From Thermosynechococcus sp. HN-54 (GTDB lineage: Bacteria > Cyanobacteriota > Cyanobacteriia > Thermosynechococcales > Thermosynechococcaceae): a DNA stretch of 64,000 nt. The stretch spans positions 1,364,001 to 1,428,000 of the forward strand of contig NZ_CP098039.1 of assembly GCF_023650955.1 (NCBI RefSeq), written 5' to 3'. The notes under the pieces were generated by a model. The model saw nothing but the letters and a program-made list of their open reading frames with translations. It was not told where the DNA came from and searched no databases. Below, one piece after another: positions 37,328 through 41,593 of this stretch (positions are counted from its first letter, which is position 1; each line of letters starts with the position of its first letter). The translations under genes were made by a program, and so were the position numbers.

Positions 37328-39895
37328 GTGGACGATCGCTACGACCCCCAAGTGATTGAGGCCAAGTGGCAGCGGGAATGGGCTGCGCGCCAGCTCGATC
37401 GCACCGATACCGATCCGCAAAAGCCGAAATTCTATGCCCTCTCAATGTTTCCCTACCCCTCTGGGAATCTCCACATGGGGCACGTTCGCAACTACACCAT
37501 CACTGATGTCATTGCCCGCTGTCGGCGGATGCAGGGCTATCGCGTTCTCCACCCCATGGGCTGGGATGCCTTTGGCCTGCCGGCAGAAAATGCTGCCATT
37601 GAACGCGGGATTCATCCCCGCATCTGGACGCAACAGAACATTGCCCAAATGCGCCAAGAACTCCAGCGCTTGGGGCTGTCCTATGACTGGGAACGGGAGG
37701 TGACCACCTGTCATCCTGACTACTACCGCTGGACGCAATGGCTGTTTTTGGAATTTTTTGAGGCGGGCTTGGCCTACCAGAAGGAGGCCGCAGTGAACTG
37801 GGATCCGGTGGATCAAACGGTTTTGGCCAATGAGCAGGTGGATAGCGAAGGGCGATCATGGCGATCGGGTGCCTTGGTGGAACGGCGACTCCTCAAGCAG
37901 TGGTTCCTGAAAATTACTGCTTATGCTGAGGAACTGTTGAATGACTTGGAACAACTGACAGGCTGGCCAGAGCGGGTAAAATTGATGCAGGCCAACTGGA
38001 TTGGCAAGTCCACCGGTGCCTACCTTGAATTTCCCGTTGTTGGCAGTGATGAAAAAATTGCTGTTTTTACCACCCGTCCCGATACGGTTTATGGGGTCAC
38101 CTATGTGGTCTTGGCGCCTGAACATCCTCTAACCCTGCAAGTCACCACTCCCCGTCGTCGCAAAACCGTTGAAGCCTTTATTGCTAGTGTGCAACAGGAA
38201 AGTGAACTCGAGCGCACTGCTGGCGATCGCCCCAAACGCGGGGTGGCCACTGGTGGCAAAGCCCTGAATCCCTTTACTGGCGAAGAAATCCCCATTTGGA
38301 TTGCCGATTATGTCCTCTACGAATACGGTACCGGCGCCGTGATGGGCGTCCCTGCCCACGATGAGCGGGATTTTCAGTTTGCTAAAGCCCACAAGCTCCC
38401 CATCCGTCAAGTGATTATCCCCCCAGACGGCAAAGTAAGTACTCGCCCTAAGGCAGCCTACACAGAGCCGGGCATCCTCATCAACAGTGGCCAATTCAAT
38501 GGCATGGACTCCACCACCGCCAAAGCAGCGATTACCGAGTATGCTGCTACCCAAGGTTGGGGACGCGAACAGGTGCAGTATCGCCTGCGGGATTGGCTCA
38601 TTTCTCGCCAACGCTATTGGGGCGTACCAATTCCGATCATTCACTGTCCCCAGTGTGGAGCGGTGCCGGTGCCGCGCTCAGAGTTACCGGTGCTCCTCCC
38701 AGAAGAGGTGGAGTTTAGCGGTCGTGGGCCTTCTCCCTTGGCCAAACTTGCCGCGTGGCGCGATGTCCCCTGCCCGAAATGTGGTGCGCCTGCCCAGCGG
38801 GAAACGGATACAATGGACACCTTTATTGACTCCTCTTGGTACTACTTCCGCTATGCGGATGCCCACAATAGTGAAGCCCCCTTTGACCCCGCAGCCATTA
38901 AGGACTGGTTACCCGTGGATCAGTATGTGGGGGGGATTGAGCACGCCATTCTCCATTTGCTCTACTCGCGCTTTTTCACCAAAGTTTTGCGCGATCGCCA
39001 GTTGGTTCATGTGAGTGAACCCTTCCAACGCCTACTCACCCAAGGTATGGTGCAGGGGCGTACGTACAAAAATCCGAGAACCGGTAAATACGTCATTCCC
39101 AGCCGCATTGCCGATCTCAATCACCCCACCGACCCCGACAGTGGCGACCCCCTAGAGGTCGTCTATGAAAAAATGTCCAAGTCCAAGTACAACGGTGTTG
39201 CCCCCAGCGATGTCATCCAACAGTACGGTGCCGATACTGCCCGCATGTTCATTCTTTTCAAAGCGCCCCCCGAAAAAGACCTTGAATGGGACGATGCCGA
39301 TGTCGAAGGCCAGTTTCGCTTCCTCAACCGTGTCTGGCGACTGGTACAAACCTTCAAAGCCCATGGCGGTCAGCTGGGTCAACCCCTACCCACAACCCTG
39401 ACGAAAGCCGAAAAAGACCTGCGCCGCGCCATTCATACCGCCATTAAAGAAATCAGCGCGGACATCGAAGGCGACTACCAACTGAATACCGCTGTTGCCG
39501 AACTCATGAAACTCAGTAATGCCCTCAGTAGTGCCGACTGCTACACCTCCGGGGTGTATAGCGAAGGTATCCAAACCTTACTCACCCTACTCGCTCCCTT
39601 TGCCCCCCACATCAGCGAAGAACTCTGGCAACAACTGGGGGGCACAGATTCAATCCACCGCCAACCTTGGCCAAAAGCCGACCCCAGCGCCCTCGTTGCC
39701 GATGAGATGACCCTTGTCATTCAAGTGATGGGCAAAACCCGTGGCGCCATTCAAGTGCCGGCCACTGCCAGCCAAACTGAACTGGAGGAAGCGGCCAAAC
39801 AGTCGGAGATTGGCCAACGCTACCTAGCAGGCAAAACCATTCAAAAAGTAATTGTCGTTCCTGGCAAATTAGTCAACTTTGTCTTAGCCCCTTAA
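37328..39895 (+). CDS. leuS: Leucyl-tRNA synthetase
   Basis: 855-residue class I synthetase charging tRNA-Leu, with an editing domain against Ile and Met analogues. HIGH region [19 protein letters not shown] (about 38-56), editing CP1 domain (about 230-420), and [10 protein letters not shown] (about 615) are intact. It starts GTG 37328 ([14 protein letters not shown]). A zinc-ribbon-like CPKCGAP and CPQCGAV pair sits in the middle, as in other bacterial LeuRS. Transcribed on its own; no regulator seen. Confidence 0.98.
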
Positions 39896-39953
39896 ACGCT
39901 AACAGTTTGCCGCAGCCCACCTGAAGGAATTTCTGGTTCTTGCTCTCGCTTTG

Positions 39954-40006
39954 CAGCAGTTATGCTACGTTAGCAGCAGTTCTAAATTGTACTCTCAGCA
40001 GTTATG
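39954..40006 (+). repeat. Three direct copies of CAGCAGTT upstream of the OLD pseudogene
   Basis: CAGCAGTT starts at 39954, 39974 and 39996, spacing of 20 and 22 bases, about two helical turns. The first and third copies continue as CAGCAGTTATG, and the ATG of the third is the start codon at 40004. They may be operator repeats of the decayed gene or an insertion footprint. Confidence 0.5.
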
Positions 40007-41202
40007 AAGGCGACGAAGCTCACTATTCATCATTTTCGATCATTTGCTGAGGCAGAGGTTTTTCTTAATCCCTATACGTTGGTAGTGGGCACAAATAACG
40101 CAGGCAAGACAAATCTCATAGATGCTATTCGTCTTTTTTATAGCAAAGATATTAAATTAATTATGAGGAGCAGCGAGACTTCCCTAAGTTTGAGGTTAGT
40201 GATCCCGAGTCTTGGGTAGAACTTGAGTTTTTACTTACATCAGATGAGCAGAGGGTTCTGAAGCCAGAATATCTTCAGCCGAATAGCAACTTCAAAGTAC
40301 GGCGCTACCTAAAAAGCACTGATAAACAGAATGAGTGGTATGTGCAAAACACTGGTACTCAGGAATACACCAAATTTCATGGAGGAGGACGCAGTGCTCA
40401 AAGAAGACTTGGAAAAATTATCTATATTCCAGCATTCAGTAAGCTTGATGATCAAACAAAGTTAACGGGTTCTTCACCACTCCGAGATTTAATCCATTCT
40501 TTTATGATGCCTGCACTTGAAAATGGTAAGGCTTATCAGCACTTGAAAAGAGCTTTCAAGGCATTTGAAGAAAACCTGAGAGATGAAGCACATACAAGCA
40601 TTTCTCGCTTAGAGAAGCTTATTTCCGACAAAATTTATCATTGGGGCGCTAAAGCTGAAATTATCCGGTGGCAACAAGCAGGTATTAGAGTTCATGAAGA
40701 TGACCAAAGAATTGAGATGGAATCAATAAAGTACACACTTTGGCTAAACTCAAATCGTTGCAGTGCATTTTTTTATAATCGAGTTCTATTGGTAGAAGCA
40801 GCAACGCAAGTAGCACTTGTAGCACTTTTTGAATATATGACTAGTGAAGCTGGATTGCTTGATTCAGGCCAGTTTTTTGTTTTTGATTGTATGGGCAAAT
40901 ACAACATACATCGCTTCATGAATCTTTTTGGGGAGTTAGGTATTTGCCATGCTGTATTATGTGATACAGATAACGAGTGCGTATCCAAAACCATTGAAAA
41001 TTCAAAAAATAATTATACCCTTGGCATAGATTATATTCAGAAGGACATTGAGTCCTTTTTAGGTATTTCAATTAAAAGCAGCGAATCACACCGTAAGCCT
41101 CAGAACTGAATGTGGCATATCCAGCATAAAAACTTTGATACTCAAAAGCTTAATCAGCTAGCTGATAAAGTTAAAACTATATTACAAAAAACTGAAAATT
41201 AG
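40004..41202 (+). pseudogene. Decayed OLD-family (AAA ATPase / TOPRIM) nuclease
   Basis: Residues from ATG 40004 (LTIHHFRSFAEAEVFLNPYTL, then Walker A VVGTNNAGKTNL) match the N-terminus of OLD family proteins. The reading frame shifts by one base near 40156-40160; restoring a T in AAATTAATTATG gives continuous protein (NYEEQRDFPKFEVSD ...) to a TOPRIM-like end (RVLLVEAATQVAL, then VLCDTDNE). TGA at 41107-41109 is in frame before a residual tail to TAG at 41202. At about 400 codons versus about 600 for OLD, the ABC signature and Walker B region appear deleted. The gene is much more AT-rich than its neighbours, suggesting transfer. Confidence 0.88.
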
Positions 41203-41297: not shown

Positions 41298-41356
41298 ATC
41301 CTTTTTTATAAGGATGGCGTCCTAGGGGGTCGATCGCTCCCCAAAAGCCTCTAGGA
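41298..41356 (+). other. Two tandem hairpins between the pseudogene and the DUF2839 gene
   Basis: ATCCTT (41298-41303) pairs with AAGGAT (41310-41315). TCCTAG (41320-41325) pairs with CTAGGA (41351-41356), with GGGG/CCCC inside. The 184-base gap from 41203 is otherwise AT-rich and empty. The second hairpin may lie in the 5' leader of the gene at 41387; neither ends in a T-run on this strand. Confidence 0.4.
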
Positions 41357-41386
41357 TAAGGAGTGTAACTGTTTGAGCAGCTAAGT

Positions 41387-41593
41387 ATGGGTGAGGCAAA
41401 ACGGCGCAAAGAAACCCTCGGTAATGCCTACGGTCAAGAAAAGGGGGGCTGGCTCAAGAAAGAGCAACTGCTGCTGATTCAGAAGTGGGTGACGCGGGGT
41501 ACGTGGGTGGGAATTGGCCTACTGGTGGTCATTTGGCTCACGGTTCGCTTTATTGGCCCTGGTCTAGGATGGTGGGAATTGACGGTGAATTAG
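41387..41593 (+). CDS. DUF2839 family small membrane protein
   Basis: 68 residues starting MGEAKRRKETLGNAYGQEK. A charged N-terminus precedes one transmembrane helix (about 41-60: WVGIGLLVVIWLTVRFIG). The MGEAKRRK opening is the hallmark of the cyanobacterial DUF2839 family. Function unknown. It is followed by dacB after 7 bases and probably starts an operon with dacB and the HerA-like gene. Confidence 0.88.
   Translation: MGEAKRRKETLGNAYGQEKGGWLKKEQLLLIQKWVTRGTWVGIGLLVVIWLTVRFIGPGLGWWELTVN

Follow-up and report, generated by a model that had tools for sequence, protein, structure and literature searches.

An OLD-family remnant beside leuS

The window analysed here is a 64,000-nucleotide stretch of a Thermosynechococcus genome (G000:C1:1364001-1428000). 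This genome, G000, is a single contig of 2,705,963 bases with a completeness of 99.99%. An OLD-family remnant occupies positions 40004-41202 of the window, between leuS and a small gene starting at 41387 (Table 1). The name leuS follows an earlier, sequence-only reading of the window and presumably holds. The gene was matched in 18/18 genomes searched, near its whole length and in one piece except in the congener G009, where it is split. The end of leuS and the right flank, from 41311 on, were each found in 11/11 genus genomes. No other ORF of at least 60 aa lies between leuS and the small gene, save a 73 aa reverse-strand frame inside the remnant, and a single tRNA was the only RNA family detected in the window.

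Table 1. Features of the leuS to small gene interval (window coordinates)
Feature	Position	Strand	Evidence
leuS (leucyl-tRNA synthetase), left neighbour	37328..39895	+	ORF, intact, 855 aa
AAA_31/ParA-type gene remnant, ~23 C-terminal codons	39892..39964	-	Aligns with whole gene in G007
OLD N-terminal part with Walker A, first frame (open to 40219)	40004..40155	+	AAA_15, PADLOC Old, G010 fragment
Frame-shift stretch, net one base	40140..40165	+	Homology to relatives switches frame
OLD middle and TOPRIM part, second frame, closed by in-frame TGA 41107-41109	40156..41109	+	ORF and homology
Junction stretch of in-frame deletion, ~163 codons	40642..40701	+	18 residues vs 171-192 in 32 relatives
OLD-like TOPRIM domain, first motif altered (VEAATQ 40792-40809), DxD kept	40768..40971	+	PF20469 5.2e-10
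Putative C-terminal tail past TGA, 30 codons	41110..41202	+	MAFFT placement on relatives' C-terminus
Conserved right flank and small gene 41387-41593 (putative DUF2839, named by the sequence-only reading)	41311..41593	+	Homology

The remnant forms an AT-rich island, as the sequence-only reading had noticed. Its GC content is 0.375 against a window median of 0.537, and only 3/629 sliding segments of 1,199 bases are as low or lower, every one of them overlapping the remnant. On the leuS side, the 22-residue reverse-strand translation of the AAA_31/ParA-type remnant aligns with KTTAKRERESDIPAGGLRQPVSV of the congener G007, and BLASTN homology of the window to G007 and G008 ends at 39964.

Both pieces of the remnant carry the domains of an OLD protein. 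The N-terminal piece matches the ABC-type ATPase family AAA_15 (Pfam, 6.4e-12) and includes the Walker A motif. The middle piece matches OLD-like_TOPRIM with 40.1 bits against a cut-off of 23.2, which supplies the C-terminal TOPRIM domain. PADLOC 'Old' gave the lowest E-value for both pieces (9.8e-13 for the N-terminal, 1.9e-12 for the middle), with AriA near-tied for the N-terminal piece (1e-12, more bits). The window copy is the only OLD-type match in the genome, with nothing else in G000 matching the middle piece (E up to 10) or the OLD-like TOPRIM family.

OLD proteins are divided, in the available text of PMC10568477, into Class 1 (single genes), Class 2 (GajA beside GajB) and Class 3 (retron effectors). 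The remnant has the layout of Class 1, a single gene accompanied by neither a GajB-type helicase nor a reverse transcriptase. Both pieces also match models of GajA, the Class 2 OLD protein of Gabija, with weaker E-values than Old. The window differs from Gabija in that no second gene, and hence no adjacent gajB, is present in the leuS-small gene interval, which is too small for a GajB-type helicase gene.

Lesions relative to near-full-length relatives

In a plasmid collection, nine matching records are 29.8-33.3% identical, and in 7/9 the match spans 80% or more of the query piece, in two segments spaced wider than in the window. A GTDB contig scan gave no match with a single protein as query; with a four-row alignment it gave 35 loci, among them the Tistrella plasmid already counted, and 2 more came from viral contigs. 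Across the plasmid AAA family ATPases (Acinetobacter, Tistrella, Xanthomonas), the 34 other GTDB loci and the 2 viral contigs, the pieces keep the same order. These proteins are mostly ~560-590 aa long, and some adjoin type I restriction genes, unlike the window copy. For the N-terminal piece, the best outside relative is 55% identical over 49 residues. The four-row family profile found TsOLD 6p74 as its best solved relative (E 1.1e-18); a PDB search with the middle piece alone gave nothing at E up to 1. The middle piece had no match in phages and, in 386 genomes of the phylum, only the window's own. Among 97 genomes of relatives, it matched, beyond its own, only G036 (30% over residues 168-299, E 4.2e-6).

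We also surveyed the neighbours of these relatives, scanning 77 of 116 neighbour ORFs from 36 loci, hand-picked as the nearer ones. Methylase_S was found in 5/77, HSDR_N in 4/77 and phage integrases in 5/77, which would fit a mobile defence gene. A UvrD-type helicase family was not among the 25 families listed for the 77 ORFs; the other 56 families have at most one member each. Type I specificity subunits adjoin the relatives at L079 and L081, and R subunits those at L081 and L093. The Acinetobacter plasmid relative at L018:1969-4810 is, per its annotation, interrupted by an IS30 transposase gene and is thus another broken copy.

From the 40 homologs, we aligned the 32 that are near-full-length and open (>540 aa), leaving out seven of at most 540 aa and one duplicate (L060 = P0005). 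The three window pieces were added to this alignment as separate rows. Compared with the 32 relatives, the window copy carries four lesions: a frame shift, a domain deletion, a nonsense codon and a changed TOPRIM motif. A pseudogene is defined by inactivating lesions that its intact homologs lack, and we have high confidence that the remnant is a genuine one, derived from an OLD nuclease of a known, Class 1-like kind.

The first lesion lies early in the gene. The N-terminal frame (40004-40219, 71 aa) carries the Walker A sequence GTNNAGKT and is homologous to the relatives through RLFYSKDI, after which homology continues in another frame from 40156 (INYEEQRDFPKFEVSDPESWVELEF). The sequence-only reading had proposed a missing T near 40156-40160. 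A net shift of one base is confirmed within 40140-40165, but the exact base is not resolvable, and we name none. The second lesion removes much of the ATPase. Between two anchors (nt ~40642 and ~40699) there are 18 residues here and 171-192 in the 32 relatives, with a median of 181, so ~163 residues are missing, in frame. In the relatives' alignment, the deleted block contains GxGFQR, LFEEPEAFLHP and THS, which we take to be the ABC signature, Walker B and the H-loop, just as we take EGxxE and DxD to be the TOPRIM metal-binding motifs. All three ATPase motifs are lost, the H-loop in addition to the signature/Walker B half already reported missing, which marks the window copy as a remnant rather than a working member of the family.

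The TOPRIM domain is altered as well. Its first motif, read earlier as VEAATQ, has the form EAxxQ, and EGxxE is retained by 32/32 relatives. The DxD motif (LCDTDNE) is kept here, as it is in 32/32 relatives. Finally, the in-frame TGA at 41107 is present as described, and the 30 codons beyond it align with the relatives' C-terminus. The tail by itself gave a best BLASTP E of 0.39, which is not significant, and no Pfam, NCBIfam or PADLOC match, so homology past the TGA rests solely on the alignment. The reading as a decayed OLD gene stands, with all the features first named for it present.

Apart from these lesions, the frame remains open. Over the 349 codons of 40156-41202, the second frame contains 2 stops, the TGA at 41107 and the terminal one, whereas the five alternative frames contain 19-45. 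None of 2000 base shuffles of 40156-41106 was open. In a simple model with transitions weighted two, a single internal stop in 394 codons has a probability of at most 0.07 if neutral divergence since inactivation is at least 0.08 per site. This agrees with the proposal that the decay was recent.

The same locus across the genus and the history of the gene

In 6/10 congeners (G001, G003, G004, G005, G006 and G009) the distance from the end of the leuS match to the small gene is 112-176 bp, compared with 1494 in the window when measured identically; these distances may include up to three terminal leuS codons. The site is near-empty in G004, where homology to the window breaks off at 39923 and begins again at 41311. 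In G010 and G002, leuS and the small gene are far apart. The G008 contig ends ~240 bases past leuS, in sequence resembling the AAA_31-type gene of G007, and its right flank is on another contig.

In G007 the interval spans 11.2 kb and contains the AAA_31/ParA-type gene, a sugar transferase gene, an OLD gene, four glycosyltransferase genes and one frame with no Pfam match. The AAA_31/ParA-type P-loop protein is putatively a polysaccharide tyrosine kinase. The OLD gene of this cluster (L039:6695-8311) is intact and starts 24 bases past the sugar-transferase gene. Like the window gene, its product (P0007) is of the OLD family and encoded on the same strand in the same leuS-DUF2839 interval; unlike it, the protein is intact, 539 aa long and of another subfamily, with 25% identity over 48 residues around Walker A. 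It was ruled out as an intact ortholog, as the middle piece gave a best BLASTP E of 8 and no meaningful match. Genes of the G007 kind were matched in 3/386 genomes at E up to 1e-10, with 28-30% identity. The sequence-only reading had suggested looking in sister strains for intact versions between leuS and DUF2839. Among the congeners, an intact OLD gene of another subfamily is there in G007, but no intact ortholog was found in the 10 that were searched, and none of them matched the middle piece at E up to 0.001.

A second broken copy is present in G010. It preserves an N-terminal part of that OLD gene, with 69% identity to the window copy over 54 residues and a stop after 58 codons; the middle piece has no match in this genome. 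The two pieces are separately truncated. The G010 piece starts 110 bases past the leuS stop (108 in the window) and lies behind a similar remnant of the same AAA_31-type neighbouring gene, and FdtA and DegT-type sugar genes follow ~340 bases downstream. The 39-base spacer before the start codon is no more alike in the two genomes than in shuffles (854/2000 as good). Elsewhere in G004, a 646-codon open frame has an OLD-like TOPRIM match (L116, G004:C1, about 1667855-1669420). Apart from this frame and the G010 piece, matches to the N-terminal piece (P0001) in congeners are mostly frames of ~379 and 1170 codons, lengths that suggest RecF and SMC.

The two OLD pieces could be compared over 46 codons, of which 20 are identical, 14 synonymously different and 12 nonsynonymously different. 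By NG86, dN is 0.23 and dS 1.59, giving a dN/dS of ~0.14. The bootstrap range of omega is 0.06-0.32, from 399/500 resamples, the other 101 having no usable dS. For leuS of the same two genomes, dN is 0.08 and dS 1.37. Of 18 leuS blocks of matching length, 14 gave a dS of 0.94-2.31 and 4 gave none. With so few codons and a dS close to saturation, the statement that the OLD gene is of the same age as leuS is a loose one.

Nucleotide and protein trees of leuS, with seven further genera of the family as the root, both separate G010 and G002 from the nine remaining genomes, which form a clade (support 100 for nucleotides, 81 for protein). G000 is the first branch of the nine in the nucleotide tree, with a support of 42 for the other eight; in the protein tree it is nested beside G007, and G006 branches first (72). 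The deeper G000 is nested among the nine, the more separate losses an early gain requires. The leuS of G009 looks damaged and gives an absurd branch in both trees. It is split (L042, G009:C52:9929-12485) into matches 1-313, with a TGA inside, 299-338 and 337-853, and an assembly or sequencing fault in this 220-contig genome is the likely cause.

The sequence-only reading had suggested a lateral gain followed by loss. Our results fit this sequence of events, with the qualification that the gain does not look recent, since the copy in G010, a congener that falls outside the clade of nine to which G000 belongs, also lies beside leuS and its synonymous divergence is like that of leuS. We lean towards one early gain beside leuS. 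Alternatively, and on a question of history only, G000 and G010 may have gained the gene by two events or by transfer between lineages instead of from a common ancestor. The failure to find the gene in the other eight congeners searched, spacers that do not align, a placement of G000 among the nine that differs between the trees and the established tendency of polysaccharide loci to recombine frequently would all suit such a course. Yet the two pieces share their position, each preceded by a remnant of one and the same gene, and their 69% identity compares with at most 55% for any outside relative. A recent transfer also predicts a much lower dS than the leuS-like value found. We consider either course rather unlikely.

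With a single early gain, the OLD gene would have arrived next to leuS, at one end of a variable locus that in part carries polysaccharide genes, either before the deepest split within the genus or close to it. It would have been kept under purifying selection after its arrival and then have decayed separately in G000 and G010, with loss elsewhere. We infer the order and timing of these events: an arrival that probably predates the split of the genus, function during most of the time since, and recent, separate decay in two lineages.

Loss of function and comparison with known OLD proteins

The intact ancestor would have been a stand-alone OLD protein of ~575 aa. In it, an ABC-type ATPase would gate a C-terminal TOPRIM nuclease directed against invading DNA such as phage, a function and mechanism that we infer from characterised OLD proteins. 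In G000 the gene product is dead, because the shift cuts Walker A off from the rest, the ATPase lacks its second half, the first TOPRIM motif is altered and a stop truncates the C-terminus.

Could part of the gene still be useful? The frame from ~40342 to 41109 might yield a shortened TOPRIM protein that lacks a complete ATPase; 317 codons are open, a GTG start at 40342 would give 255 aa, and the DxD motif is kept. Residual function of this kind is nevertheless very improbable. The first TOPRIM motif is without the glycine and the second glutamate that 32/32 relatives keep, the lack of any match to the middle piece in 10 congeners (E up to 0.001) gives no sign of selective retention, and recent lesions suffice to explain the open frame.

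It is less probable still that sequencing or assembly errors have broken a gene that is really intact. A single-base shift is a common sequencing error, a six-T run (40134-40139) lies just before the shift, and the revised genome of one Thermosynechococcus strain has, by the available text of PMC8209445, far fewer pseudogenes than its earlier version. However, base-calling errors do not account for ~163 missing codons and changed catalytic residues. The frame is still correct past the T run (SKDI here, DKDI in G010), and within 40140-40165 no run is longer than three. In addition, the neighbouring leuS, like the 415 aa and 543 aa genes, has an open frame, and the genome is one contig of near-total completeness. 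Least probable of all is programmed frameshifting at 40140-40165, for although both frames are coding-like, the TGA, internal deletion and altered TOPRIM motif would make any fusion product defective, and the G010 copy continues in the original frame for ~eight codons beyond the corresponding point. We thus retain the reading of the remnant as a pseudogene.

P2 Old and Thermus scotoductus OLD, both Class 1, share with the window copy a stand-alone layout in which an ABC ATPase is followed by TOPRIM. The window copy differs in being broken in four ways. The available text of PMC10568477 states that killing of recBC cells by P2 Old requires the Walker A lysine and the TOPRIM acidic residues. For E. 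coli YbjD, the available text of PMC13261556 describes anti-phage phenotypes that require the ATPase domain, can do without TOPRIM and persist in a Walker A mutant. As far as these texts go, the remnant would be dead by either rule because half of its ATPase and its TOPRIM motif are lost.

The remnant is ordinary in kind; what it adds is a site in common with G010 and, in G007, an intact OLD gene that is not orthologous. Our literature searches found no paper tying Thermosynechococcus to overcoming lysogenization and nothing apparently related on cyanobacterial OLD family pseudogenes in defense. Views on how OLD proteins act are not changed. Two non-orthologous OLD genes have occupied the leuS-side locus in 3/11 species, as remnants in G000 and G010 and intact in G007. 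It is conceivable, if doubtful, that the locus is a recurrent docking site at which polysaccharide genes and OLD nucleases travel together. Were this true, surface variation would be exchanged together with internal defence, in a single cassette. In this small genus, a stand-alone OLD gene was probably gained, used for a long time and lost more than once. The locus, which combines near-empty sites, two broken copies and an OLD gene that is not orthologous to them, may be useful for estimating rates of defence-gene turnover.
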